A stretch of DNA of 26,330 nt, from IMG/VR virus record IMGVR_UViG_3300036770_000446, positions 1-26,330 of that record, one strand, 5' to 3'. Shown piece by piece: positions 5,466 to 25,452 of this stretch. Within the stretch, counting starts at the first letter, position 1. The number at the start of each line of letters is the position of its first letter. Position numbers and translations under genes: made by a program. Under the pieces are notes generated by a model, which was not told where the DNA came from, ran no database searches, and saw only the letters and a program-made list of their open reading frames with translations. The DNA comes from a virus.

Positions 5466-6028
5466 TGCCTACGATTCTTCTTAAGAAAAGCGACACGCCT
5501 AGTGCGGTTCCTACAACGGCTAACCTGACCAATCTGGCAGGCGGTGTCGAGGTTGCTGTTAACACGGCAGATCGCCGCATGTTCACCATGACCTCCGCAA
5601 GTGCGGTGGTTGAATTGGGAACGAACCCGACAAGCCTAACAACCAGCAATGCTTCTATAACGGTATTGACTGGTGCTTCGGCTACGATCACGACAATTCT
5701 AGATGGCGCAGGCAACGTCCGTAACATCCCATCAGCCGGTGCTGAGAAGACTTCTACTTACACCCTGACTGTTTCGGACGTTGGCGAATTTGTCACCATT
5801 GGTGCAAGCGGCGCGATTGATGTTCCCAACGATGTTTTTATCGCTGGTAACGCCATCTCAATCTTCAACAACACCACGGGCAACGCCACGGTCAGTCTGA
5901 CCATTACGACGGCTTATATCGCTGGAACCGATTCCGATAAGGCTTCGGTAACTCTTGCCACACGAGGTGTTGCTACGATCCTGTTTGTGAACCCATCGCT
6001 CTGCGTCCTGACCGGCAACGTGAGCTAA
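5465..6028 (+). CDS. Small beta-rich virion protein, possible fibre accessory
   Basis: This 187-residue protein has its ATG overlapping the fibre stop (TACTAATG), with GGGGGAA from the fibre's Gly-Gly codons as the ribosome binding site. Residues 1-60 (MPTILLKKSDTPSAVPTTAN, then LAGGVEVAVNTADRRMF) form the conserved phage 'LKKS...NL..GE..VN..D..lf' module found at the start of fibre or tail-tip proteins. Residues 95-187 (YTLTVSDVGEFVTIG, IFNNTTGNATVSLTIT, GVATILF) are a beta domain that resembles part of the protein encoded at 12035. There is no enzyme motif. A role in attachment-fibre assembly or at the tip is inferred. Confidence 0.65.
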   Translation: MPTILLKKSDTPSAVPTTANLTNLAGGVEVAVNTADRRMFTMTSASAVVELGTNPTSLTTSNASITVLTGASATITTILDGAGNVRNIPSAGAEKTSTYTLTVSDVGEFVTIGASGAIDVPNDVFIAGNAISIFNNTTGNATVSLTITTAYIAGTDSDKASVTLATRGVATILFVNPSLCVLTGNVS

Positions 6029-6032
6029 ACCC

Positions 6033-7871: not shown

Positions 7872-8704
7872 TGGATTTGGTTGCTCACACCCCTTACACG
7901 AACTTGCCGGTTGCTAAGCCGGAATACAACTTGATGTTGAAGAACATCGAGTCACGGATGCCAGCAGTCGTGAAGGACTCTAGCAACTTCCACAAGTCGC
8001 ACTCGCAGTTTATGCAGGTGACGTTGGACGTAACGGCCATCACGCCGATCCGCTCCATTAAGCACACGTTGGCCGAGATTGAGCGCACCAAGATGGCGCT
8101 GCAAGAAGCGTACATTAACCTCCGCAAGAAGCAGGTAGAACTCAAGCGCAAGGAAGCGCAGTTGCTCAATGTCAACGACGAGTTTGACCGTGAGTTGCTT
8201 GAGATCGAGATCATGGAGATCAACACGCACACGGACAATGCCCAGAACGCCGTTCACGGTGCCGTGCGTAAGATGAATTTCTTGGTCAACCAGCACAAAC
8301 AACTGCTGGAAAAGATCGGCAAGAACGAGATCACCGAGGAAGACTACGAGAGGGAAGAGGCCCGTTATCACATTATGACCTGCATGAAGCAGGCTCTGAA
8401 CGCGGCTCGTAGCCGTGGCGGTGCGATTGACGAAGGCAACCTGATCTATCTCTTTGACCTTGGTATCAACGCGGCGCAAGCGCAGGCCGAAGTCATTGCG
8501 TACCTGAGAGTGGAAGCTGAACTCATTGAGCAGGGCAAGGCTCCGACGCATGAGATGACGCTGCGCTGGCTCGAAGCCTGTGCCGACAAGTGGCAGGAAG
8601 ACCCGGCTAAGTTTGCTGCTCGTCGCGGGTTCTCGGTGTTTGACCGGGCATCGCTCACGAACTTGCCGCCAGCCGAGCCAGTACCGGAGCCGGAGGCAGC
8701 GTAA
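7871..8704 (+). CDS. Coiled-coil hypothetical protein
   Basis: This 277-residue protein is mostly helical and charged. Residues about 60-160 form a long heptad-rich coiled coil (HTLAEIERTKMALQEAYINL, KKQVELKRKEAQLL, ELLEIEIMEIN). A Cys-containing helical block follows (HIMTCMKQALNAARSRGG), with an Ala/Pro/Glu tail PAEPVPEPEAA. The ATG overlaps the previous stop and is preceded by a perfect GGAGGT. There is no signal peptide or membrane segment. I recognise the general type from uncultured phage genomes but not a function. A chaperone or assembly factor for the preceding fibre proteins is one possibility, and this is inference only. Confidence 0.6.
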   Translation: MDLVAHTPYTNLPVAKPEYNLMLKNIESRMPAVVKDSSNFHKSHSQFMQVTLDVTAITPIRSIKHTLAEIERTKMALQEAYINLRKKQVELKRKEAQLLNVNDEFDRELLEIEIMEINTHTDNAQNAVHGAVRKMNFLVNQHKQLLEKIGKNEITEEDYEREEARYHIMTCMKQALNAARSRGGAIDEGNLIYLFDLGINAAQAQAEVIAYLRVEAELIEQGKAPTHEMTLRWLEACADKWQEDPAKFAARRGFSVFDRASLTNLPPAEPVPEPEAA

Positions 8705-9420
8705 TGCACCTCGTCGTCGGGACACCGTGCTATGGCGGAATGATGTGTACCGAGTACACAGAGTCCCTGCTGGGCTTGAAGGAAGCCTGCCTTCAGTACG
8801 GCATTAAACTGACGACGATCTTCCTTGGCAACGAGTCGCTGATCCAGCGCGGTCGCAACACCATCGCGCATTTGTTTTTGGAAACAGACGGCGACTATTT
8901 GATGTTCATCGACGCAGACCAGAAGTTTGTGCCGAATGACATTGCCAAGATGATCAAGGCCGACAAGGGCATCATTGGCGGTGCGGTGCCGATGAAGGGC
9001 ATCAATTGGGAACGGGTACGAGAAGGTGCGCGGCACGGCCATCCGAGACTGGATCTGCTGACCGGTATCTTTAACGTCAACTCGCTGCCCGGACACGAGA
9101 TGGTGAGTCCCAACTTGCCGTTTCAGGTCAAGCATGTCGGCACCGGTTTTATGTTAATTGCGCGTCATGTGTTTGACCGGCTGAAGCCCCATGTCGGCTG
9201 GTATACCAAGGACGGCGAGAAGCATTACGACTTCTTCAAGGTGCAGAACGTCAACCACGAACTGCTCTCTGAGGACTACAACTTTTGTCACATGTACCGT
9301 GAGCAAGGCGGTACCGTTTGGGTTGCTCCGTGGTGCCAGCTTGGGCATTTTGGAGCGCATTGCTTTAATGGACAGTATGCGGAGATGAACCATGCACGAG
9401 TGCATAAAATATCGGCTTAA
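8704..9420 (+). CDS. GT-A type glycosyltransferase (GT2-like)
   Basis: This 238-residue protein has the Rossmann-like N terminus of a GT-A enzyme: VVGTPCYGGMMC at 4-15, then strand and helix to GDYLMFIDADQKF at 63-75. The D70-x-D72 in IDAD is the metal/nucleotide-sugar DxD motif. GTGFMLIARHVFDRL (about 146-160) and LLSEDYNFCHMYREQGG (about 190-206) match the acceptor loop and the catalytic ED-x-x-F/L region. It should transfer a sugar from a nucleotide sugar to a protein, glycan or DNA base. Its place after fibre genes suggests virion glycosylation or modification of host surface sugars. GGAGG lies 7 bases before the start. No membrane segment is seen. Confidence 0.85.
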   Translation: MHLVVGTPCYGGMMCTEYTESLLGLKEACLQYGIKLTTIFLGNESLIQRGRNTIAHLFLETDGDYLMFIDADQKFVPNDIAKMIKADKGIIGGAVPMKGINWERVREGARHGHPRLDLLTGIFNVNSLPGHEMVSPNLPFQVKHVGTGFMLIARHVFDRLKPHVGWYTKDGEKHYDFFKVQNVNHELLSEDYNFCHMYREQGGTVWVAPWCQLGHFGAHCFNGQYAEMNHARVHKISA

Positions 9421-11386: not shown

Positions 11387-12034
11387 ATGCCTGCGTCGAT
11401 GACATTTACCAGTTTGCAGTCGGACATCCGCAACTACCTCGAACGCGGTGGTGCGACCGACCCTATCGTTTACGAGCAGATTCCCCGGCTGATTACGCTG
11501 GCCGAGCGGAGGATCGCCCGTGAACTGAAGATCCAAGGCTTTCAGACAGTGGTCAATACCACCCTGCAATCTGGGGTAGCGGTTTACCCGAAGCCGGATC
11601 GCTGGCGCGACACCATCAGCATCAACTACGGCACCGGTACTGGAAACAATACCCACACCCCGGTCTTCGCCAGATCCTACGAGTACATCCGCTCTTACTG
11701 GCCGAACGAGACTCAGACGGGTGGCCCGCAGTTTTACGCGGACTACGACTATAAGCATTGGATCTTTGCGCCGACTCCGGATGCCGACTATCCGTTGGAG
11801 GTGCTGTATTACGAACTGCCGCCGTTGCTGGATGACACCAACCAGACGAACTGGCTGACCGAGTTTGCGCCGAACCTGTTGCTGTACGGGTCGCTGGTGG
11901 AAGCCACGCCGTTTGTGAAGGACGATCAGCGCGTTCAGTTGTGGCAGACCTACTACGACCGGTCGCTGGCTGCGCTCAATGGCGAAGACCTCCAGAAGAT
12001 TGTTGATCGGTCCACGAATCGCCGGGAGGCATAA
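11387..12034 (+). CDS. Head-tail adaptor protein, SU10-type
   Basis: This 215-residue protein matches the phage adaptor family (SU10 adaptor type, from memory). The N-terminal FTSLQSDIRNYLERGGATDP, then IVYEQIPRLITLAERRIARE (residues 5-50), is the family's helical signature. Residues 60-125 form the beta part (YPKPDRWRDTISINYGTG, YIRSYWPN), with DYDYKHWIFAPTPDADYPLE and VLYYELPPLL as the conserved second block. NWLTEFAPNLLLYGSLVEAT is the C-terminal helix. Such proteins form a ring under the portal that connects to the nozzle. It starts with AGGAGAGG upstream and is followed by fibre-like and nozzle-like genes, a coherent neck module. Confidence 0.82.
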   Translation: MPASMTFTSLQSDIRNYLERGGATDPIVYEQIPRLITLAERRIARELKIQGFQTVVNTTLQSGVAVYPKPDRWRDTISINYGTGTGNNTHTPVFARSYEYIRSYWPNETQTGGPQFYADYDYKHWIFAPTPDADYPLEVLYYELPPLLDDTNQTNWLTEFAPNLLLYGSLVEATPFVKDDQRVQLWQTYYDRSLAALNGEDLQKIVDRSTNRREA

Positions 12035-13231
12035 GTGACTACTTATACAAACACCTTCGGTGGAACGAACATCTACCCGAGCGATGTCTCGTACCGCTAT
12101 GTATCGCTGACGATTGATCAGGTTCTGGACTGGCCGCTTGAGGCTGCTCCGAGCACTAATGTCGTTGCGAAGATCATGGACGTTAACGCGACGGCCTCTA
12201 GCCTTGTCATCACGATGCCCGATGCAACTCAGGCTGGCACGGGTGAGACGGTTCTGTTTAATAACGTCGGCGCTAATACTTTCACGGTTAAGACTTCAAC
12301 CGGCACCGTCATCTGCGCTCCGCAGTCGGGCACGACGTTTCAGATTTACCTAACTGACAACAGTACGGTTTCGGGTACGTGGCGTTCGTTCCAGTACGGA
12401 GCTTCGGCTTCGTCTACCAACGCGGCTGCGCTCGCTGGATTGGGCATCAAAGCAATTGCGACGACGCTCAACCAGTCGATGCCCGTTAATACCTTTAGCA
12501 CCAACTACACCGCTGGAACGAGTGATCGTGCTAGTGCTTTGGTTTGGACTGGCGGTGCTGGCACGCTGTCATTTGATGGCGCTCCGAGCTTGGGTGATGA
12601 CTGGTTCGTCAATGTTCGCAACAGCGGTACTGGCGATCTAACGCTAAACCCCAACAGTTCTGAACTAATTAACGGTGTCAGCACGCTTGTACTATCGCCG
12701 GGTGATAGCGCGATTGTTGTTACTGACGGCCTTGAGTTCTGGACAATCGGCTTCGGACAATCTGCTGTCTACGCATTCAGTCTGCTTCAGATTGACATCT
12801 CTGGCAGCGGTAACTACACGCTGTCGGTTGCAGAGCTTAATAAGACGGCTTACGTTTTCACCGGAACTTTAACTGGTGATCGCGACATTATTGTTCCAAC
12901 CACGGTTCAGCAATACTGGGTTAGCAATCAAACCAGCGGCTCTTATCAACTTGGAGTTAGAACGTCAGGACAGGCTAGTCCCGGCGTTACTATTGCTCAA
13001 AACGCTAGGGGTATTTTCTACTGCGACGGGACTAACGTGGTAGATGCGGATACTTCCACCGTATCATTCCCAGTTCAAATTAGTCAGGGCGGAACTGGCG
13101 CAACAACCGCCAGCAGTGCGCGAACCAACTTGGGTGCAACGACGGTGGGTAATGCTGTGTTCACCGCAGCCAGTCAAGCCGCAGCTCAGATTGCTTTGGG
13201 GCTGGACCCCATTGAGGGCGGTACGTACTAA
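12035..13231 (+). CDS. Fibre/tail-associated beta protein ending in GGTY
   Basis: This is a 398-residue protein. The start is a GTG directly after the adaptor stop (TAAGTG), with GGGAGG 5 bases upstream. It is Thr/Ser/Gly-rich with repeated beta units: SSLVITMPDATQAGTGETVL, FNNVGANTFTVKTSTGTVI, VNVRNSGTGDLTLNPNSSEL and LTGDRDIIVPTTVQQYWVSN. The C terminus QISQGGTGATTASSARTNLG and DPIEGGTY is the typical end of phage fibre-anchor proteins and parallels the end of the long fibre at 5465. It probably links the neck or nozzle to fibres. TACTAATG overlaps the next gene. No enzyme motif is seen. Confidence 0.7.
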   Translation: MTTYTNTFGGTNIYPSDVSYRYVSLTIDQVLDWPLEAAPSTNVVAKIMDVNATASSLVITMPDATQAGTGETVLFNNVGANTFTVKTSTGTVICAPQSGTTFQIYLTDNSTVSGTWRSFQYGASASSTNAAALAGLGIKAIATTLNQSMPVNTFSTNYTAGTSDRASALVWTGGAGTLSFDGAPSLGDDWFVNVRNSGTGDLTLNPNSSELINGVSTLVLSPGDSAIVVTDGLEFWTIGFGQSAVYAFSLLQIDISGSGNYTLSVAELNKTAYVFTGTLTGDRDIIVPTTVQQYWVSNQTSGSYQLGVRTSGQASPGVTIAQNARGIFYCDGTNVVDADTSTVSFPVQISQGGTGATTASSARTNLGATTVGNAVFTAASQAAAQIALGLDPIEGGTY

Positions 13232-14841
13232 TGCCGCTTCAGCCGGTCATTGTTCGCTCTGAAGCCGGTATCAAGCGAGACGGTACCAAGTTTGAGGGCA
13301 ACTTTTACGTTGACGGACAGTGGGTCCGCTTTCAGCGTGGACTGCCCAGAAAGATAGGCGGGTATCGTGCGCTTCAAGATCGCTTGGATGGTATTGCTCG
13401 TGGTATGCATATCCACAACCATAATGCATATACATACGTGCACATCGGTACGTCAGATGGTGTGTTTCGATTTCGGCTAGATCAGAACGGTCAGTCGAGC
13501 ATTGTTACAAATCGTACTGATCCGGGTTACGTCGCGAACTCCAACAACATGTGGCAGTTCGATGTGGCGTATAACACCACAAATAACCAGAACGAGATTC
13601 TGGCACATGTTGCTCCGAACGTAGCCGACATCTCATCGGATGCTCCGGGTCAGTTGTACACGGGGTTTGACAATGGCACGGGCACGCTGACTCCGGTTCC
13701 GTCATTGACTATTTCTGGCGGTATCGTTGCACTGGCTCCGTATGTCTTTGCGTATGGATCAGACGGCTTCATTCAGTGGAGTCGCGCTGGTTATACGGAT
13801 GACTGGAGCGGTGGTGATGCCGGTGCTGCGCGTATTACAAGCCAGAAGATTGTCAAAGGTCTTCCGCTTCGATCCGGTGCTGGTAACGCGCCGTCGGGTT
13901 TGTTCTGGTCGTTGGACTCGGTGATTCGTGCAACGTATGTGGGTAGCACGGCGGTGTTCCAGTTTGACACCATTACCTCACAGTCCAGCATCCTGTCATC
14001 GCAGAGCGTCATTGAGTACGACGGTATCTATTATTGGTGCGGTGTTGACCGGTTCTTGATGTTCAACGGTGTGGTTCGAGAAGTTCCGAACAACCTGAAC
14101 CTGAACTGGTTCTACGACAATCTGAACTACGCTCAGCGCCAGAAAGTTTTTGCGTTCAAAGTTCCGCGTTGGGGCGAGATCTGGTGGTGCTACCCGCGTG
14201 GTAATGCAACCGAGTGCACTCATGCCGTCATTTACAACGTGCGTGAGAATACGTGGTACGACACCGCTCTTCCGAATAGCGGACGCTCTGCTGGCATGTA
14301 CGCTCAGGTTTTTAGTTCGCCGCTCGTGGTGGGTGTGATTGACACCGAGACGACTGGTTATCGCGGAACTCAAACGAGCGAGCTGCGAATTACCGAAGAC
14401 GGCCAGCCCCGCATCATCAACGACCCCAAGGGCTACGTGGTGTGGCAGCATGAGTATGGTACCGATGAGATTAACGGTACTCAGATTCGTCCGGTGCAGT
14501 CGTACTTTGAGACGGCGGACATGTCGCTACTGACTTCGGATCAGCCTCAGAATATGGCGGTTCGCGTTGAGTACATGGAGCCGGACTTCGTGCTGTCGGG
14601 CAATATGACGGTGCAAGTAACCGGTCGCGCTAACGCCAGAGCCGGTGAAGTTACGAGCGATCCGCAGATTATCTATTCAACCCTGACCGACCGACAGCAG
14701 CAGTTGGTGTACTTCCGTGAGATCCGTCGTGAGATGCGATTCCGATTTGAAAGCAACACGCTGGGCGGTAATTACCAGATGGGTCAGATCATTGCCCACA
14801 TCGAACCGGCTACGGGTACGGTGCTCGGAGAGAATCCGTGA
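13231..14841 (+). CDS. Putative tail nozzle/stabilisation protein (beta-propeller)
   Basis: This is a 536-residue protein. The N terminus (IVRSEAGIKRDGTKFEGNFY, then VDGQWVRFQRGLPRKIGGYR) is a conserved start of phage nozzle-like proteins. Repeated strands with aromatic residues follow, such as AYTYVHIGTSDGVFRFR, YVFAYGSDGFIQWSRA, YYWCGVDRFLMFNG, GEIWWCYPRGN and AVIYNVRENTWYDT, as in the beta-propeller of P22 gp10 and T7 gp12-type nozzles. The C-terminal 100 residues (MAVRVEYMEP, QLVYFREIRREMRFRFES) form a separate beta domain. Its position after the adaptor supports a role in closing the portal channel. The assignment is by architecture, not by strong identity. Confidence 0.62.
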   Translation: MPLQPVIVRSEAGIKRDGTKFEGNFYVDGQWVRFQRGLPRKIGGYRALQDRLDGIARGMHIHNHNAYTYVHIGTSDGVFRFRLDQNGQSSIVTNRTDPGYVANSNNMWQFDVAYNTTNNQNEILAHVAPNVADISSDAPGQLYTGFDNGTGTLTPVPSLTISGGIVALAPYVFAYGSDGFIQWSRAGYTDDWSGGDAGAARITSQKIVKGLPLRSGAGNAPSGLFWSLDSVIRATYVGSTAVFQFDTITSQSSILSSQSVIEYDGIYYWCGVDRFLMFNGVVREVPNNLNLNWFYDNLNYAQRQKVFAFKVPRWGEIWWCYPRGNATECTHAVIYNVRENTWYDTALPNSGRSAGMYAQVFSSPLVVGVIDTETTGYRGTQTSELRITEDGQPRIINDPKGYVVWQHEYGTDEINGTQIRPVQSYFETADMSLLTSDQPQNMAVRVEYMEPDFVLSGNMTVQVTGRANARAGEVTSDPQIIYSTLTDRQQQLVYFREIRREMRFRFESNTLGGNYQMGQIIAHIEPATGTVLGENP

Positions 14842-15077
14842 GAACGCATCGCATCGTAGATCCGCGTGGGATGGAGTTGCAGTACTGGGCAGATACGCTG
14901 TGCTTGGACTTGGACGAGTATGCAGTGATCCCACAGTTGTACGCAGAATCCGAGTGGCAGAATTGGGCGGCGGGTTTGATTGGTATCAACGGCATTTCGC
15001 AGTTGAATCCTCCGTCGCCTTATCAGTTTGATGACTGGCGCGAATGGGCGCTTCGCTTCTATCAAGTTTTGGACTAG
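14838..15077 (+). CDS. Small hypothetical virion-region protein
   Basis: This 79-residue acidic, Trp/Tyr-rich protein starts at a GTG overlapping the previous TGA (GTGA). It reads MRTHRIVDPRGMELQYWADT, then DLDEYAVIPQLYAESEWQNW, and ends DDWREWALRFYQVLD. No Cys cluster, signal peptide or known motif is visible. Small proteins at this position in similar phage genomes are often tail-completion or chaperone proteins. Here the role is unknown. Tight coupling to the nozzle gene is the main reason to accept it as real. Confidence 0.6.
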   Translation: MRTHRIVDPRGMELQYWADTLCLDLDEYAVIPQLYAESEWQNWAAGLIGINGISQLNPPSPYQFDDWREWALRFYQVLD

Positions 15078-15084
15078 GTGAACT

Positions 15085-17940
15085 ATGGCTAGTTACTACA
15101 CTTACGGCACGATCCCGAATGCTGAAGAGACGGTCTATGGGCCTTTGTCTCAAGGCTACGCTGAGGGCGGTGAAGTAGATGAGGCTGTACCGGCAGATCG
15201 CGGTTTGCCTGAAGAACTGTATTACAGCGAAGAACCACAGATTTATTACAGCGAAGAGCCGCAGCCGTATTACAGCGAAGAGCCTCAACCTCTTGCCATG
15301 GCGCAACCTCGTAATGATCAGGTAGCAGCTCCTTATATCCCGCCCGGATTGCAAGCTGCTTTCTTACGTATGCAGGGAAAGTCTCCAGAGCAGTTGGCTG
15401 CAAAAGCAGAAGCCGCAGCTAAAACAAAAACGGAGCGCGAAGTTCTTTCTGGCCTTTTGCAAAGCAATCAGTTTGACGCGGCATTTAAATATGCCATGGA
15501 TAACAACGTCCAGAATCTTCTGATTGACCCAACAGAGCTGCGAACATTAAAAAGCAACTTCACTCCTGAGGAAACCAAAAAGTTTTTTGCAGAAATGCCA
15601 AAAGACTTGATGGGTCCGCAAAGCGAAGAGGAAGTTAAGTTTGATCCTGCCGCTGGACTTGAAGCTTCATTAGAGAAGAAAACAATACCATCTGGTCTTT
15701 CTGCGCTTGGACTTGTCGAGGGAGTTCCGCAAGTTCAAAGAGCGTTTATTCCACTTGAGCAAAAGAAAGAAGATGGCCTGTTTGAAGACATCATAAAAAC
15801 CGTTCTTGCCGCTGGCACTCTGTATGCCGGTGCGTCGGCATTGCCGGGACTTATTGGCGGCGGTAGTGCTGCTGGTGCTGGTACTGCTGGTACTGCTGGC
15901 GCTAGTGGGGCTGGAGCTACTGGTGGCGGTCTTTCGGGGGCTATAAAAGCTGTTGGAAGTATCCCCGCTAAAATTGGCGGAACAATTGCTGAAACACTCG
16001 GGCTTCCGGTTACTAGCACAGTAGGAAAGGCAGCTCTTGGAAATGCCGTTATTACTGGCGGAACAACTGCCGCTAAAGGCGGAAGTCTTGAAGACGTTCT
16101 TAAAGCAGGACTTCTGTCTGCTGGTCTTACTTACGTTTCTGCTCCCGTCATGGATGGGCTGAAAGACGCAGCAAAAGCCGTTGGCGGAAAGTTGGGTATT
16201 GGCACAGGCGCTGCTACTACGGCAGCGGGGCAAGCTGCAACGGAGGCTCTTTCTGACGTTGCCGTTGATGATCTGCTTCAACAGGTTACTGTTACAGCAA
16301 GTCGTCCAGCACTGAGCAATCTAATTGGTCTTGGCGCTGTCGCCGTTCCGACTAGCACTAAAGTTGACTTGCCTGAACCAAAAGTTGCAACAGAACAAGT
16401 TGCTCCAGAAATCGAAGAACCTCCTTTAGAAGAAGTTGTTGTTACTAGTCAGCGTCCGGGCCTTGAAAATCTTCTTGGCCTTGGAACGGTCGCGCTCCCG
16501 ACAACTACACCTGTTACCACTCCTCGCCCGAGCGTGTTGGAGCCGGAGCCGGTTGTTGCTGATCGCGAAGTTCGCGAGGAGCCTATTGAGCAGCAGCCAC
16601 TTGAAGAAGTAACTGTTACTGCGCAAAGACCGCCGCTTTCGGATTTGCTGGGGCTTGGCGCTGTGGCCGTTCCAACTACTACACCTGTTGAAACACCAAA
16701 GCCTGACTACATTGAAGAAGTTGTTCTTCCAGAAGAAGAACCGCTTGAAGAGGTAGTTGTTACTGGCCAGCGTCCGCCTCTTTCAGATCTCCTTGGTCTT
16801 GGTGCTGTAGCGGTTCCGACAACTACGCCTGTAGATGTAAAAGCTCCGGACTACATAGAAGATGTTGTAATACCAGAAGAAGAGCCGCTTGAGGAAGTGG
16901 TTGTCACTGGTCAGCGTCCACCTCTTTCGGATCTGCTCGGTCTTGGTGCGGTTGCCATTCCAACTACTACGCCTGTTGATGTTCGAAAACCAGACTACAT
17001 TGAAGATGTGGTTTTGCCAGAAGAAGAGCCTCTTGAAGAGGTTGTTGTTACCGGACAACGGCCGCCGCTTTCTGATTTGCTTGGCCTTGGAGCAGTTGCA
17101 GTTCCAACAACGACTCCGGTTGATTTGCCAAAACCAGAAGTTATTTTGGATCAAATCGTATATCCAGAAGAGGTGGTTGTTGAAGGAACCAAACCTACTG
17201 AGGGTGGGCTAACTCTGCCGCCGTTTACTATTCCAACTCAAACTCCGATTGAAGGTATAAAAGAGCCTGAAATTAATAAGCCTAACCCGCTTAAAGATCT
17301 GCTCGACAAGTACGGCTCGTTGGAAAATCTGCTTAAACTTCTCGGCGCTCTGGGATCTGCTGCTTCTGGAACTGCCAAGGCTCCCGCACCAACGGCTCCG
17401 ACTGGCGGCATGGGCGGCGCGTTGCCTAAGTACACCTATACCCGTCAGCAGTTGAGTCCGGACATTGATTACTACACCTACGGCACTCGCCCGGAGGCAA
17501 AGTTCTTTGACTACACGACTCAGCTTGAGAGGCCAGTACAGCCTGAACTGCCGCCTGCTAAGACTCCTGATCAAGAGTCTCCAGTAGTATCATTAGCAGC
17601 TCCTACTTATGTTGGGCCAACCCCTCTTTTTGTTGAACCGGGAATGGCTACCGGCGGTTTGACCGGCTACGCCAAGGGTGGCTCCAAGAGTTCCCGTTAT
17701 GTGGATGGTCCCGGCTCGGGTCGGGAAGACAAGATCCCGGCTCTTCTGAGCGACGGGGAGTACGTAATTGATGCTGAAACGCTGGCTCTGCTGGGGGACG
17801 GCTCGACCAAGGAGGGTGCTCGGCGCATGGATAAGTTCCGTGCTAATATCCGAAAGCACAAGGGTCGTGCCCTATCGCGTGGCCGGATTAGTCCAAACGC
17901 AAAGTCGCCCGATAAGTACATGGGCGGAGGGTTGACCTAA
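15085..17940 (+). CDS. Large repetitive internal virion protein with TonB-box-like repeats
   Basis: This 951-residue protein has several parts. Residues 1-75 contain AEGGEV (26-31) and three YYSEEPQ copies. Residues 230-300 are Gly/Ala-rich and hydrophobic (TVLAAGTLYAGASALPGLIG), possibly membrane-active. Residues 399-710 hold six repeats of EEVVVTGQRP plus LSDLLGLGAVAVPTTTPV with acidic linkers, then one degenerate copy. Residues 775-805 contain PKYTYTRQQ and YYTYGTRPEA, echoing the N-terminal YYTYGT. Residues 854-951 form a conserved phage tail module (VDGPGSGREDKIPALLSDGE, YVIDAETLALLGDGS). That module recurs at the ends of internal or tail proteins. Probably a virion or ejected protein; its function is not established. 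Confidence 0.65.
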   Translation: MASYYTYGTIPNAEETVYGPLSQGYAEGGEVDEAVPADRGLPEELYYSEEPQIYYSEEPQPYYSEEPQPLAMAQPRNDQVAAPYIPPGLQAAFLRMQGKSPEQLAAKAEAAAKTKTEREVLSGLLQSNQFDAAFKYAMDNNVQNLLIDPTELRTLKSNFTPEETKKFFAEMPKDLMGPQSEEEVKFDPAAGLEASLEKKTIPSGLSALGLVEGVPQVQRAFIPLEQKKEDGLFEDIIKTVLAAGTLYAGASALPGLIGGGSAAGAGTAGTAGASGAGATGGGLSGAIKAVGSIPAKIGGTIAETLGLPVTSTVGKAALGNAVITGGTTAAKGGSLEDVLKAGLLSAGLTYVSAPVMDGLKDAAKAVGGKLGIGTGAATTAAGQAATEALSDVAVDDLLQQVTVTASRPALSNLIGLGAVAVPTSTKVDLPEPKVATEQVAPEIEEPPLEEVVVTSQRPGLENLLGLGTVALPTTTPVTTPRPSVLEPEPVVADREVREEPIEQQPLEEVTVTAQRPPLSDLLGLGAVAVPTTTPVETPKPDYIEEVVLPEEEPLEEVVVTGQRPPLSDLLGLGAVAVPTTTPVDVKAPDYIEDVVIPEEEPLEEVVVTGQRPPLSDLLGLGAVAIPTTTPVDVRKPDYIEDVVLPEEEPLEEVVVTGQRPPLSDLLGLGAVAVPTTTPVDLPKPEVILDQIVYPEEVVVEGTKPTEGGLTLPPFTIPTQTPIEGIKEPEINKPNPLKDLLDKYGSLENLLKLLGALGSAASGTAKAPAPTAPTGGMGGALPKYTYTRQQLSPDIDYYTYGTRPEAKFFDYTTQLERPVQPELPPAKTPDQESPVVSLAAPTYVGPTPLFVEPGMATGGLTGYAKGGSKSSRYVDGPGSGREDKIPALLSDGEYVIDAETLALLGDGSTKEGARRMDKFRANIRKHKGRALSRGRISPNAKSPDKYMGGGLT
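16279..17210 (+). repeat. Tandem protein repeats with TonB-box-like EEVVVTGQRP
   Basis: Repeat starts fall at 16279, 16429, 16603, 16747, 16891, 17035 and (degenerate) 17167, with a core period of 144 bases (48 residues) in the last four full copies. The protein core EEVVVTGQRPPLSDLLGLG is identical in three copies. The DNA differs at many third positions, so the repeats are not recent duplications, or are held apart by selection. EEVVVTGxR resembles the TonB box of proteobacterial TonB-dependent receptors. Confidence 0.85.
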
Positions 17941-19388
17941 TGGGTGTTCTAGACTTTCTGTTTGAGGGCAGCGCCCCAACACCGGGTACCACCAGCAGCA
18001 GTACCCAAATTCAATTGCCAGAGTGGTACACCCAGTACACCACAGACATGCTGGGTCGCGCTCAGGGCGTTGCCAACCTTCCGTATGCTCAGTACACCGG
18101 TCCTCGGGTTGCAGGGTTTACCCCAACTGAGCGAACTGGCTTTGAGCAAACCAAAGCAGCAGCGGCGGCTTATCAGCCATTCTTGCAACAAGCGGGTGCT
18201 GCCCTAGGCCAAGCTGGTGGTATGAGCGGAATGGGTGCTGCCGCCCAAGATTTTGAGACGGCTTCTTCCATGCTGGGTGCTCAAGCAGCAGCTCCGTACT
18301 TAACCCCGGCAGCGGCTATGTCGGGCTTGACGGCAGCGCAGCCAATGTTCTCCCAAGCGATGCCTACCATTCAGCGAGCGGGTGAAGGGTCTGCCCTAAC
18401 GGCAGCGCAACCGTTCTTGGGGGCAGCAGCTCGGACGTTCCCGCAGGCGGCTCAGGAATACATGAGTCCTTACATTCAGAACGTCGTTGAAAAGATGGGC
18501 GACATCGGTGTGCGTCAGTTGCAGGAGAAGTATCTCCCGGCCATCGGTCAAGAGTTCATCGGAGCCGGTCAGTTCAGCGTCGGTCCCGGTAGCACTCGCA
18601 TGGGTGAATTTGGCGCTCGGGCGTTGCGAGATACGCAAGAGGCCATTTTGGCTGAGCAGGCTAAGGCGCTTCAGGCTGGTTATGGTCAGGCTGCGGACAT
18701 CTACGGTCAGGATGTGGGCCGGTTGGCGCAGTTGGCTGGAACGGTTGGTCAGCTTAGTACTGCTGATCTTAATCGCTTGCTGGAGAGTGGCGTTCGCGTT
18801 GCCGACATTGGCGCGAAGATGGGTCAACTTACGGCGGACGATGCCGCTCGGCTGGCGGACATTGGTAAGGCAACGGGTCAGCTTACCCAGCAGGATGCTG
18901 CCAACTTGGCTCGTATCGCAGAGTCGAAAGGTCAGCTTACCCAACAGGACGCTCAAAACCTTCAGGCTCTTGCTTCAAAGTACGGTGCTCTTGGCGAAGC
19001 AGCTCAAACCTTGGGTCTTACTGGAGCTGGAGCTATTACCGACGTTGGCGCGAAAGAACGCGCTATGCAGCAGGCCAATCTCAACTTGGCTTACGAAGAC
19101 TTCATTGCTCAGCGCGATTACCCGAAAGAGCAGATCAAGTTCTTGTCGGATGTGTTGGGCGGCGTGCAACTTCCGCAAACGACTGTTACGCAGTCCACTA
19201 CGACCCCGGCTCAACCCGGTGGAGCGTCAGCAATTGAAAAAGCAATTACCGGAGCCACTGGCATTGGAGAGCTTTTGGAGAAATATAGAAAATATTTCCC
19301 GTCTAGTTCCGCTAGCGGCACCGTTCCGAAATATGACTATGGCTCTATTACTGACAGCATTAATGACCTCTTGAAGGTTGGTGGCTGA
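17940..19388 (+). CDS. Ala/Gln-rich internal virion-like protein
   Basis: This 482-residue protein starts in TAATG overlap, with GGAGGG from the previous gene's Gly codons as ribosome binding site. The N terminus MGVLDFLFEG, then QLPEWYTQYTTDMLGRAQGV and YTGPRVAGFTPTERTGFEQT, is a block I associate with uncultured marine and freshwater phage virion proteins. Residues 80-260 are Ala-rich helices, ending with QFSVGPGSTRMGEFGARALR. Residues 270-348 hold four GQLT repeats. The C terminus GTVPKYDYGS resembles PKYTY in the preceding protein. It is probably an internal or ejection protein forming long helices. No enzymatic motif is seen. Confidence 0.65.
   Translation: MGVLDFLFEGSAPTPGTTSSSTQIQLPEWYTQYTTDMLGRAQGVANLPYAQYTGPRVAGFTPTERTGFEQTKAAAAAYQPFLQQAGAALGQAGGMSGMGAAAQDFETASSMLGAQAAAPYLTPAAAMSGLTAAQPMFSQAMPTIQRAGEGSALTAAQPFLGAAARTFPQAAQEYMSPYIQNVVEKMGDIGVRQLQEKYLPAIGQEFIGAGQFSVGPGSTRMGEFGARALRDTQEAILAEQAKALQAGYGQAADIYGQDVGRLAQLAGTVGQLSTADLNRLLESGVRVADIGAKMGQLTADDAARLADIGKATGQLTQQDAANLARIAESKGQLTQQDAQNLQALASKYGALGEAAQTLGLTGAGAITDVGAKERAMQQANLNLAYEDFIAQRDYPKEQIKFLSDVLGGVQLPQTTVTQSTTTPAQPGGASAIEKAITGATGIGELLEKYRKYFPSSSASGTVPKYDYGSITDSINDLLKVGG
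18747..18983 (+). repeat. Four GQLT helical repeats (18-residue period)
   Basis: GQL starts at protein residues 270, 295, 313 and 331. The last three units are 18 residues each: GQLTADDAARLADIGKAT, GQLTQQDAANLARIAESK and GQLTQQDAQNLQALASKY. The 18-residue period equals five alpha-helical turns, fitting a regular helical rod or coil. Confidence 0.8.
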
Positions 19389-19390
19389 TT

Positions 19391-20776
19391 ATGAAAAGAG
19401 AAGTCGCTGAAATGCTTGGCTTGCCATACGATCCCGCTCTTGACGAAGAAGAAACGGACGAGGAAGTTCAGGCCGAAGAAGACGCTCAGGCCGATGAGGA
19501 GCCTGAAGCTGGCGGGCTTTCGTACATTCCTGCGCGTGTTCGACGGGAGTATGAGCAGTCTCTGAAGGCTTACGAAGGCTCTTATCAGAATCAGATTAAC
19601 CAGATTCAAAAAGCCAAGGATCTGCTTCTTTCCCAGCCGACCGAGCTGAGCCGGAGTCAGTATCTCCAGCAGCTTGGCTCTGTGCTGACTGCTCCGCGCA
19701 AGTCTACTGATCCGCGCTTCTACGAGCGTCGTAATCTCTTTACTTTCCTCCGCGATGTGGGAGAGCTTGGCTCTGCACAGAAGGCAGCGGAAGAGAAAGC
19801 CAAGCTTGAGCAACAACAGAAGCTGCTCCAGCTTGACGAGCTTTCAGCAAAGTATGGTCAGGAGCGCGACTACAATCGCTTGAAGCTTGCCACCCAGTTG
19901 ATGGGTAAGTACAAGCCAGCGGCTGCTGCGAAAGAGCCGGATGAGATTACTCGTTTGCAAAACAGCCGAGAGCAGCTTGTTCAGAGTCGCTCCAGCATGG
20001 ACCCGAGAGCGCCTGAGTATTTGGCAATTAGTAATCGCATTAAAGAGCTTGATAAGCGCATCGCTTACCTTGGTGGGGAGCGTGCAGAAAAAGAAGGCGA
20101 AGCCCTTACGGTTGGTCAGAAAGCCCTTGATAAGAAAATTGGTGAAGAGTACGCCAACTGGGTTGTTGGTGGCGGCGCAGTTCAGAGCGCCTCTCGCATT
20201 TCAAGAATCAATGACATTACTTCGAAGCTGAAAAAGGACAAGGACATTAGCGGGCCTGTTGTTGGGTTCACCCTTGATAACCTTCCTACCATGGCCTCGG
20301 TTCTTTATCCAGAAGCTCAAGATGCTAAAGACGTTGTTGAGTCCGTTGTACAAACGGATCTTCGCGCCATCTTGGGCGGTCAGTTTGCTCAGAAGGAAGG
20401 TGAGGCTCTTATTAAGCGAGCCTATAACCCAAGACTGGGTGAGGAGAAAAACGCGAAGCGATTGCAATTGCTTGCTTTGCAGATGCAAATGGTTAACGAT
20501 GAAAAGAATCGTGCCATGCAATACTTTGGAGATAAGGGGACGATTCAGGGCTATACCTTCCGTCCGTTTACCGCTAATGATTTCTTGACATCTGATCAGC
20601 TTGATCGCCTTGATGCTGGTGAAACTCCAGAGGAAATTTTGGGGATTTCTAAGCCAGCTCCAAAACCCGCTGGTGAAGGTAAGCCTGCTGGTGGAAAGCC
20701 CGCTGAACCTAAAAAGAAATACAAGAAAAAAATTAAGGTTGGCGATCGCATTATTGAAGTTGAGGTTGAGGAGTAA
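19391..20776 (+). CDS. Coiled-coil internal virion-like protein
   Basis: This is a 461-residue protein. After a short start it has a very acidic stretch (DEEETDEEVQAEEDAQADEE, about 17-36), then a long charged helical region. The latter includes a coiled coil (AAEEKAKLEQQQKLLQLDEL). Residues about 330-375 (LRAILGGQFAQKEGEALIKR, AYNPRLGEEKNAKRLQLL) form a conserved block I recognise from phage proteins encoded next to transglycosylase internal proteins. The C terminus is Pro/Lys-rich and ends KIKVGDRIIEVEVEE. It lies between two other large candidates for internal proteins. An ejected or inner-core protein is inferred. Confidence 0.65.
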   Translation: MKREVAEMLGLPYDPALDEEETDEEVQAEEDAQADEEPEAGGLSYIPARVRREYEQSLKAYEGSYQNQINQIQKAKDLLLSQPTELSRSQYLQQLGSVLTAPRKSTDPRFYERRNLFTFLRDVGELGSAQKAAEEKAKLEQQQKLLQLDELSAKYGQERDYNRLKLATQLMGKYKPAAAAKEPDEITRLQNSREQLVQSRSSMDPRAPEYLAISNRIKELDKRIAYLGGERAEKEGEALTVGQKALDKKIGEEYANWVVGGGAVQSASRISRINDITSKLKKDKDISGPVVGFTLDNLPTMASVLYPEAQDAKDVVESVVQTDLRAILGGQFAQKEGEALIKRAYNPRLGEEKNAKRLQLLALQMQMVNDEKNRAMQYFGDKGTIQGYTFRPFTANDFLTSDQLDRLDAGETPEEILGISKPAPKPAGEGKPAGGKPAEPKKKYKKKIKVGDRIIEVEVEE

Positions 20777-20782
20777 GACCGA

Positions 20783-23700
20783 ATGCCTACTTACACGATC
20801 GCGGGTAAAAGGGTTACTTCTCCGGAGCCTCTTTCGGATGAGGAGATTGCGGCTCTTTACAGCGACCTTACCGGAGTTAAACCTGCCGCCGCGGCTCCTG
20901 CGCCTGCCGCTAAGCAGCGACTTACGCCTGAGCTTCCGCGAGATATCCGCACTCCGCAGGACGTAGATGTCCGTCGTGGTGCCAGCGGTCTTCTGGGCCT
21001 ACCCGGCGGCTTGCTTGACATCGCTACCGGCATTGCTGGCCTTGGTGGCGAGAATGCAGTAACCCGTTGGCTTCGAGAGAAGGAGCGTTCTCTTGCTGCT
21101 CAGGCTCCGAGCGAAGCTGGATACGAAGCCGGAAAGATTGTTCCGCAATTGGCTCCGGCGCTTGGCACTGCAAAGCTTGTATCTAAGATCCCGGCAGCTA
21201 GCACTGCTACCCGCGCTCTTCTTCAGGCTGCTGGTCAGGCCGGTCAGGCTTATGCGGTAACTCCGTCTGCATCAGAAGATCGCGAGCAGATGAGCGTGAT
21301 GGGCCTTGGTCCTCGCGAGTCTGCTGCTGTATTGGAAGGCGGTCTTGGTTTGGCAGGCGAGGCTGCGGCTCCTCTTGTTCGGGGTGCAATTCGCACCGGT
21401 CGCAAAGGCGCAGACTTCGCTCAATCTGTGAAAGAAGGTTTTACTGGCCGGATTCGTGGCGTTCCTACAACGCCGGTCACTGAAGAAGAGCGTGCCGCTC
21501 TTGCGATCACTCAGCGTAGAGGCGTGACTGCTGATGAGCAGGCTCTTGCCGATGCCGAGAAGGCTTCGCAGATGCGCCGAGAAGAGTTGAATGCTCTGCG
21601 TATCCGCCAGACTGAAGCAGCCGCTGCTCGCGAACAACAGCGTCAGGCTTTCCTTGCTCAGAAGAAAGCAGCCGAGGAAGCTGAGGCTAAGGCGCTTGAA
21701 ACGGTTGAGCTGACTCCAACTCGTGGCAAGCAGGAGCTTGGACAGCGATTGCGCGACACCGTCATGGCTGCGCGTAAGAAGTACATGGATGAGCGTTCTC
21801 AAGCGATCGGCAAGTTTGAATCCGGAGATGAAGTTCCGGTGTTCACCGCTGCTAAAGAAATGGAAGCGGCTGGTGAGTTCATTAACAAGACTGAAAAGTT
21901 TCAGGATCTTGTTAAGTACTTGCGCGAGCGCGGTGTTGGTCGAACCGGCAAGTCCGAGCTTGACCGTGAAGAAATCAAAGCTTTCAAGAATGTCCTTCGC
22001 GATGTAACTCCCAAGCAGCGGGTTTCTGAAACCATTCTAGACGAAGCCGGTAACAAGACGGTTGTGCGCAGGCTTGAGCCTGTTGACATTACTTTTGAAA
22101 AGCTTGTTAAGCTTCGCAGAAGAATTCAAAAGGGTGACCCCGGCGTAACCGAAACTGGTTTTCAGGCTATTACCGGAAAAACTAGAGACGCTTTGCTTGA
22201 GAAAATTGACAATGTTCTTGACGATTTCTCGCCCGGATACCTTGATTATAAGAAGACTTACGCCGAAACATCTGAGCCGTTGGACTTCTTGAAGGTCAAC
22301 ACGGTTGGAAAGAAGGCTGCTGGTTTCCAGAAGTTTAGCCAAGAAGAGTTTCAGGCTAACCCCGAGGCTGTGCTTGATGCTCTGCTCAATAACCCGAGCA
22401 AGACTAACGCTGACAACCTGCTGAAGTTTGTCGGCAACGAAGGCAAGGATGACATTGAGCAGGTCGTGCTTGAGGCGCTTGTCAATAAAGCTGGCGGAAA
22501 GTCCAGCGGCTACGCCAAGGTCCTTGAGAAGTACGACGACTTCTTAGAAGCATTCCCGACAGCGAAGAAGCGTCTTCAGGACGAGTCTGCGGTGTTTGAC
22601 AAGGCAACTGCTCCGGCACGCGCTGAGTATGAGAGTGCGATTGCAGGTCTTGAGCGTATCAAGGGCGAGAAGTTGGAAGACTCGCTCCGTCGCCGGATTG
22701 CAACTTCTGAGTTTCAGAAGGCTGATGCTATTCGCGTCTCGACTCAAGACAGACTCAAGAGCCTGCAAGACCTTGATAAGGACACCCTGATTGCGATCAG
22801 TGAAGAAGCCAACAAGATCCCGCTCAATACTTCGGTTGGACTTGCTCAGGCTACGGCATTGGCTGCAATCGCAGGCGGCGCTGGGCTTATTGCAAACGAC
22901 TCTCCGCTTGTTGGCATTCTTGCCATCGCAGGTGGCGCTGCTACTAGTAAGGCTGCGAGAAACGCCTTTGCTAAGAAAAGAGCGGAAGTTTCTAACCGCA
23001 TTGAAACCGAAGTTAAAAAGATCATCGCTAGCCGTTCTGGCGAGCGTGCTGCTTCTATCCAGCAGCGTATTGATAATCAAGACGGCATCATGCAGGCCCA
23101 GCGTATTGCGAACGAGGCACTGAAGAATATCGGCTTCAAGCCCGGTACTGGCGCTGTCACGGCTAACGCTATCTACAAGGCATTCGCTGTTGATAAGGGT
23201 GCTGAAGCTGAGATTGACGGCTCTAGCGCCGCTGGAGAAGAGGGCATTGTTCCTGATTCTGAGGGCGAGCCTGAGGTTGGCTCAAACGGCGAGTCTTACG
23301 ATATCGGTGAGATTATCTCGACTCGCGGCGCTGATGATTTGGCTCCGCTGATCATGTCGATCTATGAGCAAGAGTCCTCTTCTGGTAAGGCCGATACCGA
23401 CAAAGAGAATTACGCTGGCGCAAAAGGTCCGATGCAAGTCACGCGAGATACCTTTGAGGGTATGCGCATGTCTGGCTTAATTCCCGAGAATTACAGCTTT
23501 GACAACCAGTCACATTTAGCCGAGGCCGGAGTGGCGCTGATTCAGGATCTCGCTCGCCGTTATGGTAACGATCCTGAAAAAATTGCTGCTGCATACTACG
23601 GCGGTCCGAGAGCGGTTACTGAGCGTGGTATTCGACGGGAGCGTCGCGACCCAAAGAATCCTAAGGCTCCGACCGTAGGCCAGTACGCTGATCAGGTATT

Positions 23701-24238
23701 GGCTCGCTTGATGCCGACTGCTCAGGCTGAGGGAATGGCTGAGGGCGGATTGGTTGAACCCGGCAACATTGATGTCTCAAAACTGCCAGCAGTCCGTAAC
23801 GCTGATGGAACTTACAGCACCGTAAGATCTATGGGCGTTAACATCAATGGAAAGGAAGTCCTGATACCAACGGTAATTAACGGGCGCGTGGTTTCAGAGA
23901 AAGAAGCCATTAATCATTATTTGAAAACCGGAAAGCATCTTGGCGTTTTCAGCACTCCCGAGGAGTCCACCGCCTACGCTGAAAAGCTTCACCAAATGGA
24001 AGCTCAAAGGATCAAGAAGGCTCGCGGCGGTGCCGTTGAAGACACGACGGACTACACGCAGTACAACGATCGAATCCTTCGTGCATTGATTAAGCGTTAC
24101 GGCAACGAACAGAAAGCTCGTCAGGTAATGCGAGACACCGATGCCGGAGTGCTACTCAAGATTATGCGAGAAGAGGAAGGTGCTGCGCGATACAGTCCCA
24201 ATGAGCAGGCCTTGCTAAGGCGTTACGCAAACAGGTAG
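20783..24238 (+). CDS. Internal virion protein with lytic transglycosylase domain
   Basis: This is a 1151-residue protein. GAGGAG precedes the ATG. The N terminus MPTYTIAGKRVTSPEPLSDE is short and conserved. Residues 240-310 form a coiled coil. Residues about 683-730 are hydrophobic (ATALAAIAGGAGLIA, LVGILAIAGGAATS). Residues 850-945 are a soluble lytic transglycosylase domain: IYEQESSSGK with probable catalytic E864, then GPMQVTRDTF and AAAYYGGPRAV. Residues 985-1075 are a common phage C-terminal module (AVRNADGTYSTVRSMGVNIN, GKEVLIPTVINGRVVS, TGKHLGVFSTPEE). It probably enters the periplasm at infection and opens peptidoglycan for DNA passage, like T7 gp16. Confidence 0.85.
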   Translation: MPTYTIAGKRVTSPEPLSDEEIAALYSDLTGVKPAAAAPAPAAKQRLTPELPRDIRTPQDVDVRRGASGLLGLPGGLLDIATGIAGLGGENAVTRWLREKERSLAAQAPSEAGYEAGKIVPQLAPALGTAKLVSKIPAASTATRALLQAAGQAGQAYAVTPSASEDREQMSVMGLGPRESAAVLEGGLGLAGEAAAPLVRGAIRTGRKGADFAQSVKEGFTGRIRGVPTTPVTEEERAALAITQRRGVTADEQALADAEKASQMRREELNALRIRQTEAAAAREQQRQAFLAQKKAAEEAEAKALETVELTPTRGKQELGQRLRDTVMAARKKYMDERSQAIGKFESGDEVPVFTAAKEMEAAGEFINKTEKFQDLVKYLRERGVGRTGKSELDREEIKAFKNVLRDVTPKQRVSETILDEAGNKTVVRRLEPVDITFEKLVKLRRRIQKGDPGVTETGFQAITGKTRDALLEKIDNVLDDFSPGYLDYKKTYAETSEPLDFLKVNTVGKKAAGFQKFSQEEFQANPEAVLDALLNNPSKTNADNLLKFVGNEGKDDIEQVVLEALVNKAGGKSSGYAKVLEKYDDFLEAFPTAKKRLQDESAVFDKATAPARAEYESAIAGLERIKGEKLEDSLRRRIATSEFQKADAIRVSTQDRLKSLQDLDKDTLIAISEEANKIPLNTSVGLAQATALAAIAGGAGLIANDSPLVGILAIAGGAATSKAARNAFAKKRAEVSNRIETEVKKIIASRSGERAASIQQRIDNQDGIMQAQRIANEALKNIGFKPGTGAVTANAIYKAFAVDKGAEAEIDGSSAAGEEGIVPDSEGEPEVGSNGESYDIGEIISTRGADDLAPLIMSIYEQESSSGKADTDKENYAGAKGPMQVTRDTFEGMRMSGLIPENYSFDNQSHLAEAGVALIQDLARRYGNDPEKIAAAYYGGPRAVTERGIRRERRDPKNPKAPTVGQYADQVLARLMPTAQAEGMAEGGLVEPGNIDVSKLPAVRNADGTYSTVRSMGVNINGKEVLIPTVINGRVVSEKEAINHYLKTGKHLGVFSTPEESTAYAEKLHQMEAQRIKKARGGAVEDTTDYTQYNDRILRALIKRYGNEQKARQVMRDTDAGVLLKIMREEEGAARYSPNEQALLRRYANR

Positions 24239-24248
24239 AGTCAAGCCC

Positions 24249-24476
24249 ATGAAAAAGAAGGACAAGTACATCCCTGTTCAAATAGAAGACGGGAAATGGT
24301 ACCGGGTCCGTGGGTACACACACTCGGAGTGCTGTGACTGTGCGTTGGTTCACAAGGAAGAGTATCGACTCGTAGATGGCCATCTGGAATGGCGTGCATC
24401 TCGGGATGATAAAGCGACCAACAAACGCCGCAAGGAACTAGGCATAAAGGTGGATCGTGCCGATAAAGGTAAGTGA
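24249..24476 (+). CDS. Small Cys-motif phage protein
   Basis: This 75-residue basic protein has AGGTAGAG about 9 bases before its ATG. The core YTHSECCDCALVHKEEYRL (C28, C29, C31, H35) is a short metal-binding-like motif that I recall in many small phage proteins of this length. It is followed by HLEWRASRDDKATNKRR, a basic region suited to nucleic-acid contact. It overlaps the phosphoesterase gene start by 20 bases, so the two are probably co-translated. The function is unknown. Confidence 0.7.
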   Translation: MKKKDKYIPVQIEDGKWYRVRGYTHSECCDCALVHKEEYRLVDGHLEWRASRDDKATNKRRKELGIKVDRADKGK

Positions 24477-25452
24477 TTCTGAATTCATCGAAGCTTGGAA
24501 AAAACTAAAGAACGCTAATAAAGTTTCAGAATTTTTTAAGATGGACGTACGAGCCGTCCGAGCCAGAAGAAGAACCATGGAAATCAGATATGGCATATCG
24601 CTGCCGTCTGAGAGTAAAGGTTTAGGAAATAGCTGGCGCTCACAGAAAGGCCAGATGCTGGACAAGATCGCAGAGCATCGCTCCAAGGTTTACAAGCATG
24701 TCATGGACTACGAGCTGCACGATGGTGTGGTTCTCGTGGCATCGGATGCGCATTACTGGCCGGGTATTGTTACTCCCAGCCACGAAGCCTTCTGCAAGTT
24801 AGCTAAGCAACTTAGTCCGAAAATGGTGGTGCTCAATGGCGACATCTTGGATGGTGCTCGCATCAGCCGTCACGCTCGGATCATGTGGGAAAAGCAGCCC
24901 GAGTTGAAGGACGAGATCCACACCGTTCAGGATCGTTGCGCTGAGATCGAACGGGCTGCGAAGGGTGCCAAGTTAATCCGCACCATCGGTAACCATGACA
25001 GCCGCTTTGAGAACTACCTATCGGGTCGAGCTGGCGAGTTTGAAGAGATGGTAGGTACGACGCTGCTCGACTATCTCCCGCGCTGGGAGGCTGGCTGGGC
25101 ATTGCATCTAAACCGCGAAGAGGATGGCTGGGTCTGTATCCGGCACCGTCCGGTCGGAGGAGGCGTTCACTCCTCGTACAACTCAACCCTCAAGGCTGGC
25201 GTGTCCTACGTCCACGGGCATCTCCACAAGCTTCAGGTAACGCCGTGGGCGGATTATCGCGGTCGCCGATACGGCGTAGACACCGGGACGCTTGCGGAAC
25301 CATACGGGCCGCAGTTCAACTACACCGAAGCCGGTCCGGTCAATTGGGCATCGGGCTTTGCCGTTCTTACTTTTGTGGGCGGTAAGATGCTTCAGCCGGA
25401 ACTGTGCGTCGTCGAACATGGTAAGGCTTGGTTCCGAGGCAAAGAGGTCTAG
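24457..25452 (+). CDS. Calcineurin-like metallophosphoesterase with N-terminal HTH-like segment
   Basis: This 331-residue protein has all the metal-site motifs of the family: D97-x-H99 (VASDAHYW), G128-D129 (LNGDILDG), G178-N-H-D181 (TIGNHDSR), H230 (IRHRPVGGG) and G254-H-L-H257 (VHGHLHK). It should hydrolyse phosphoesters, possibly of nucleotides or DNA ends, with two metal ions. Residues 7-45 (SEFIEAWKKLKNANKVSEFF, then VRAVRARRRTME) look like a helix-turn-helix, as in other phage-encoded members. The GTG start is supported by AAAGGTGG just upstream and by the overlap with the previous gene. It is the last rightward gene, and its stop shares CTAG with the opposing gene. Confidence 0.88.
   Translation: MPIKVSDSEFIEAWKKLKNANKVSEFFKMDVRAVRARRRTMEIRYGISLPSESKGLGNSWRSQKGQMLDKIAEHRSKVYKHVMDYELHDGVVLVASDAHYWPGIVTPSHEAFCKLAKQLSPKMVVLNGDILDGARISRHARIMWEKQPELKDEIHTVQDRCAEIERAAKGAKLIRTIGNHDSRFENYLSGRAGEFEEMVGTTLLDYLPRWEAGWALHLNREEDGWVCIRHRPVGGGVHSSYNSTLKAGVSYVHGHLHKLQVTPWADYRGRRYGVDTGTLAEPYGPQFNYTEAGPVNWASGFAVLTFVGGKMLQPELCVVEHGKAWFRGKEV
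25449..25452. other. CTAG shared by two convergent stop codons
   Basis: The rightward phosphoesterase stops at TAG 25450-25452 and the leftward zinc-finger gene stops at TAG read from 25451 to 25449. The palindrome CTAG therefore ends both. CCGAGG (25434-25439) and CCTCGG (25466-25471) form a weak inverted repeat around it. No T-run follows on either strand, so a bidirectional intrinsic terminator is not well supported. Confidence 0.75.

Follow-up and report, generated by a model that had tools for sequence, protein, structure and literature searches.

A TonB-box-like motif array in a probable podoviral ejection protein may dock on the host TonB-ExbBD motor

Both host receptors and bacteriocins are known to carry TonB boxes (PMC11658791). 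These boxes bind TonB by beta augmentation and tolerate sequence variation; the boxes of colicins and of receptors both bind TonB, with secondary structure outweighing exact residues, and the TonB-dependent colicins that carry them are pulled in (PMC11658791). Some phages also need this system: the entry of T1 and phi80 (via FhuA) and of phiL7 (tonB-exbBD) is described as dependent on it in PMC11658791 and in the review PMC8543423, which, citing Hung et al. 2003, states that infection of Xanthomonas by phiL7 involves tonB-exbB-exbD1. Podoviral ejection proteins cross the outer membrane and the periplasm (PMC8954989). In the open-access literature, a scope outside which most subscription papers and preprints fall, we found no report of TonB boxes on phage proteins.

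The stretch of DNA that we analysed (the window) is one complete virus record of 26,330 bases. It encodes a 951-aa protein (15085-17940, + strand), defined by its open reading frame, its homologues and its synteny with gp065c of Caulobacter phage GB2A, which carries an array of motifs resembling TonB boxes and is referred to below as the repeat protein. Seven copies lie in frame within this ORF, all on the + strand: QQVTVTASRP (aa 399, 16279-16308), EEVVVTSQRP (aa 449, 16429-16458), EEVTVTAQRP (aa 507, 16603-16632), EEVVVTGQRP three times (copies 4 to 6; aa 555, 16747-16776; aa 603, 16891-16920; aa 651, 17035-17064) and EEVVVEGTKP (aa 695, 17167-17196). An initial sequence-only reading had counted six or seven such repeats between 16279 and 17210, and its boundaries agree with this array. 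The exact 10-mer EEVVVTGQRP that it gave for the repeats occurs in only three of the seven copies, and the 48-aa (144-nt) tandem units detected by TRF (nt 16595-17138) hold four, copies 3 to 6. One 16-mer repeat peptide reads PLEEVVVTGQRPPLSD. No other ORF in the window had more than one stray match. Searches with the repeat unit against Pfam, NCBIfam and PDB returned no meaningful match, the motif being too short. The same protein has other repeated elements: tandem 24-nt repeats (window 15219-15284) encode YYSEEPQ(P/I) near its N-terminus, and a YYTYG..P.AE motif is found close to both termini.

The likeness to TonB boxes was assessed in both directions. When a profile built from phage sequences only was scanned over whole receptor ORFs, the top-scoring position fell within the TonB-box zone in 67 of 89 TonB-dependent receptors, compared with a mean of 18 and a maximum of 60 for column-permuted profiles (n=1000) and 30 for the reversed profile; among the misses, L150, L152 and L156 have TonB-box-like sites outside the set zone. 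Conversely, a second profile was derived de novo from 64 receptors and no phage sequences (consensus LEEIVVTGSRR); under it, the seven phage copies were the top seven 12-mers in all window ORFs of at least 60 aa. The two profiles correlate at 0.61, and none of 5000 permutations exceeded 0.52. The resemblance of EEVVVTGQRP to the N-terminal TonB-box region of receptors, proposed from the sequence at the outset, is thus borne out by profiles that predict each other's sites.

The specificity of the motif in bacterial genomes points the same way. In 190 genomes of Alphaproteobacteria, a search for DNA that encodes [DE]EVVVTG with MGN codons (mostly R) two residues further along gave eight matches, seven of which lie at the N-terminus of a TonB-dependent receptor, immediately ahead of the plug. 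In 56 genomes of Gammaproteobacteria, a pattern for peptides like [DE]E[VI]VVT[GA]x[KR] hit such N-termini in 18 of 21 cases, so that receptors make up 25 of the 29 pooled matches; the reversed patterns had none in either group. The idea of a common linker motif, equally frequent in unrelated proteins, does not hold against these figures. A pattern ending in Pro had 0 matches in 289 genomes; it was too stringent, as most receptor boxes end in GSRI or TARR. By sequence, the phage motif is a TonB box, with the consensus (L)[DE]E[IV]VVTG/Ax[RK]. One non-receptor bacterial protein (L180, DUF4139-like by eye) carries PPPRLQMRDEVVVTGSRI in a Pro-rich linker and may be a TonB client.

The neighbourhood of the gene is that of a podoviral tail and its ejection proteins. 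Upstream lie an SU10-type tail adaptor (11387-12034, + strand; Pfam SU10_adaptor, E=1.3e-31), a tail-fibre-like gene, a podoviral tail nozzle (13231-14841, + strand; PDB 9nwi, 8zkm and 8zkk, E down to 1.6e-12; phrog_3287) and a conserved 79-aa ORF between nozzle and repeat gene (14838-15077, + strand; 46% identity to GB2A gp066c). The next gene after the repeat gene encodes a DNA ejection protein (17940-19388, + strand; phrog_4287, E=8.7e-6) that is also present in GB2A and DSL-LC04; it is followed by a probable second ejection-cassette protein of 461 aa (19391-20776, + strand; 35% identity over 189 aa to GB2A gp063c) and, at the cassette end, by a 1151-aa virion protein with an SLT transglycosylase domain (20783-24238, + strand; Pfam SLT, E=3.4e-9). 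Gene order is the same in the isolate GB2A, with identities of 51% for the nozzle, 46% for the small ORF and 64% for the C-terminus of the repeat protein (gp065c). The adaptor, nozzle, phrog_4287 and SLT neighbours, together with this shared order, place the repeat protein in a podoviral ejection cassette, which sharpens its earlier description as a protein of the virion region; judging from this synteny, it is probably ejected into the cell. The only firm host in the family is Caulobacter vibrioides, the host of the isolate GB2A, and the boxes of GB2A are weaker. Host assignment from homologues on contigs of metagenome-assembled genomes was rejected, such contigs being unreliable as host evidence. 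A metallophosphoesterase gene (24457-25452) directly follows the cassette.

An AlphaFold model of the repeat protein, built with 37 family members, is of low confidence (mean pLDDT 50.5) and shows a helical domain at aa 87-220, helices at 284-369 and C-terminal helices. All motif copies fall within aa 371-733 (16195-17283, + strand), a region rich in Pro, Glu, Val and Thr with a net charge of -44, where the model has no secondary structure and pLDDT is mostly below 50; the segment is therefore predicted to be disordered, so that the boxes would sit in a flexible, accessible part of the protein. Before it, a hydrophobic Gly/Ala stretch with its hydropathy maximum at aa 240-258 and the helices at 284-369 (together aa 236-369, 15790-16191, + strand) form a possible membrane-active segment. 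The conserved C-terminal domain (...GPGSGREDKIPALLSDGEYVIDAETLALLGDGSTKEGA..., 17695-17880, + strand) is marked by invariant columns in 37 homologues; the domain (SDGEYVIDAETLALLGDGS) is also present in other phages, in their tape-measure and virion proteins. We found no Pfam match up to E=10, no plug, no beta-barrel in the model and no toxin or killing domain in Pfam or NCBIfam; known ejection proteins showed no similarity to it, and its C-terminus alone gave short matches, to tape-measure PHROGs. In phages of Arthrobacter, Pelagibacter, Planktothrix and others, tape-measure and virion proteins again have the SDGEYVIDAET C-terminal domain.

The repeat protein was compared with the closest described systems. 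It shares with TonB-dependent receptors (Plug family PF07715) the consensus, the flexible segment and the cross-predicting profiles, but a receptor carries a single box, followed by a plug and a beta-barrel, whereas the phage protein family has up to seven in mid-protein and neither domain. Like the TonB-dependent bacteriocins (colicins B, D, Ia and M, pyocins, klebicins), it would be a foreign entering protein with TonB boxes in a disordered segment (PMC11658791); unlike them, it has a mid-protein array instead of a box near the N-terminus accompanied by receptor and killing domains. It resembles the podoviral ejection proteins T7 gp14-gp16 and P22 gp7/gp20/gp16 (PMC8954989) in its position after the tail genes and beside ejection and SLT genes and in its hydrophobic and helical segments. 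No sequence similarity to these proteins was found, and neither the consulted section of PMC8954989 nor our literature searches yielded a description of TonB boxes on them. Finally, scans of the ORFs of T1, phi80 and phiL7 as possible positives gave no convincing box: the presence of the motif is thus no general sign of dependence on TonB, and such dependence needs no box.

These observations suggest that some phages use the host TonB motor to aid entry. The reading that we favour, and hold to be fairly likely, is that the repeat protein is ejected and, while the genome enters, docks on TonB-ExbBD through a multivalent array of TonB boxes, in the manner of TonB-dependent colicins. Going by synteny, the repeat protein would be packaged in the virion and released along with the other ejection proteins; its disordered segment would then reach the periplasm, where single (L)[DE]E[VI]VVTGxRP boxes could each extend the C-terminal domain of host TonB by a beta strand, like the boxes of receptors and colicins. 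Docking on TonB-ExbBD would fix the ejection apparatus to the inner membrane, or the proton-motive force would pull the ejected protein, and the genome with it, inward, or both. Several box copies would raise avidity relative to the host's own receptors. If the array binds TonB, phages would recruit a motor driven by the proton-motive force directly, beyond the use of TonB-dependent receptors. Such docking would provide a mechanism for energy-dependent entry and help to explain the need of some phages for TonB/ExbBD; it would open the question of what powers podoviral genome entry to experiment in Caulobacter, using GB2A, and offer a sequence tag to recognise phage proteins that enter the envelope. 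We found no report of TonB dependence having been tested for any phage of the family.

Could the array be an ordinary Pro/acid-rich linker, enlarged by tandem duplication, in which the motif has no function? Four units are head-to-tail duplicates, and disorder and a varying length of the region also fit such a linker. We consider this reading very improbable, since the motif stays fixed despite high synonymous divergence and turns up in unrelated linkers throughout the family. Between repeat units, pS is 0.55-0.73 versus a pN of 0.06-0.20, and the 13-codon motif of copies 4 to 6 shows 6-11 synonymous and 0 non-synonymous differences; unchanged amino acids over so much synonymous change point to purifying selection rather than recent slippage. 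A de novo search of 56 non-redundant phage homologues, naive to TonB, ranked DLEEIVVTGRRP first; 51 of the homologues have a site for it, a few of these weak (e.g. L003, L120). The loose expression [DE]x[VIL]x[VI][TSE][GA] matched 70 times in 57 non-redundant homologues versus 3.2 in shuffles, a count that overstates independence because family members are related; reversed or permuted expressions matched 0-12 times in the same set. Homologue linkers differ completely yet carry LEEIKVTGKKP, NEIVVTGQRP, DDIVVSGKRP, DEIKVTAPKK or LEEVRVEGKKP, among others. As these homologues indicate, the motif is the conserved part of an otherwise variable linker. Conservation has its limits: several members have a weakened box or a T to E/K change (EEVVVEGTKP, DEVVIETTKP, DPVVVNPPQG in GB2A), L003, a close homologue that is 60% identical overall, is without a clear box, and the family members L047 and L120 are without one, so that the motif is not essential everywhere. 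The repeats of L003 look like drifted versions of the EVKVEAP repeats of L077. Elsewhere in the family, four homologues (L005, L012, L096 and L099) have a long Ala/Glu/Arg-rich helical N-terminus, which in L099 matches TolA weakly (TIGR02794, E=0.001) and may reflect low complexity or a periplasm-spanning helix.

The main rivals to docking are two readings that do give the motif a function. The boxes could bind TonB to occupy it and not to be pulled, many boxes per particle titrating TonB, starving receptors and blocking superinfecting phages or bacteriocins that depend on TonB. Up to seven copies exceeds the need of a single docking tag, and the evidence from cross-predicting profiles applies equally to such a role; yet copy number varies widely across the family and can be one, which fits titration poorly, as does the position of the gene among those of the ejection cassette. 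We regard a decoy as unlikely. Slightly more doubtful to us is that the motif acts inside the virion or ejectosome, for instance by adding beta strands to another phage protein, its likeness to TonB boxes reflecting convergence on generic beta augmentation. TonB boxes are short beta strands that any strand-donor motif could resemble, and the motif also occurs in tape-measure-like, baseplate-hub-like and N-terminal contexts of other phages. The likeness is nevertheless not confined to VxV: it takes in the acidic pair before it, the leading L, the T-G/A and the following K/R, and in bacterial genomes the motif is specific to receptor N-termini. As weaker evidence, relatives by the C-terminal domain in Arthrobacter, Pelagibacter and Morganella phages, which are few and only distantly related, lack the strict motif. 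Arthrobacter has no outer membrane and no TonB.

Beyond this family, a DNA pattern for the exact motif found 29 loci in 2.9 million viral contigs, mostly of the repeat-protein family, and the reversed pattern found 0. One of the contigs (L016) has two adjacent ORFs of about 720 aa (4747-6909 and 6896-9049, - strand) that begin with TTVDEVVVTGKRP and PTVEEVVVTGKRR, each an N-terminal TonB-box-like motif followed by a basic stretch; on this evidence it appears to be an independent case of N-terminal motifs of this kind. An upstream gene near these ORFs has a weak match to phrog_2534 ('released from the phage upon host infection'). With the looser pattern DEIVVTGx[RK] the background is real, at 78 contigs forward versus 24 reversed; ORFs with at least two copies numbered 11 forward versus 0 reversed. 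By eye, its matches in unrelated phages include tape-measure-like proteins (L329, L344), what looks like a Mu-type baseplate hub with an N-terminal box (L311), small internal proteins that start with MEEIVVTGRR (L347, L351) and a tail protein (L330). Four related proteins of about 500-650 aa (L318, L328, L294, L353) carry DEIVVTGTRP arrays and have no SDGEYV C-terminal domain. A tentative extension, which we put forward with less conviction than docking itself, is that unrelated phage proteins entering the envelope (ejection, tape-measure, baseplate hub and N-terminally tagged internal proteins) gained TonB boxes on repeated occasions, in which case direct recruitment of TonB-ExbBD by virions would be a widespread and so far undescribed step of phage entry to Gram-negatives rich in TonB-dependent receptors. 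Evident false positives among the matches to the looser pattern include, on reading their sequences, L281 (HAD-like) and L285 (zinc-ribbon-like). Contigs L303 and L310, classed as viral, carry host genes for TonB-dependent receptors.
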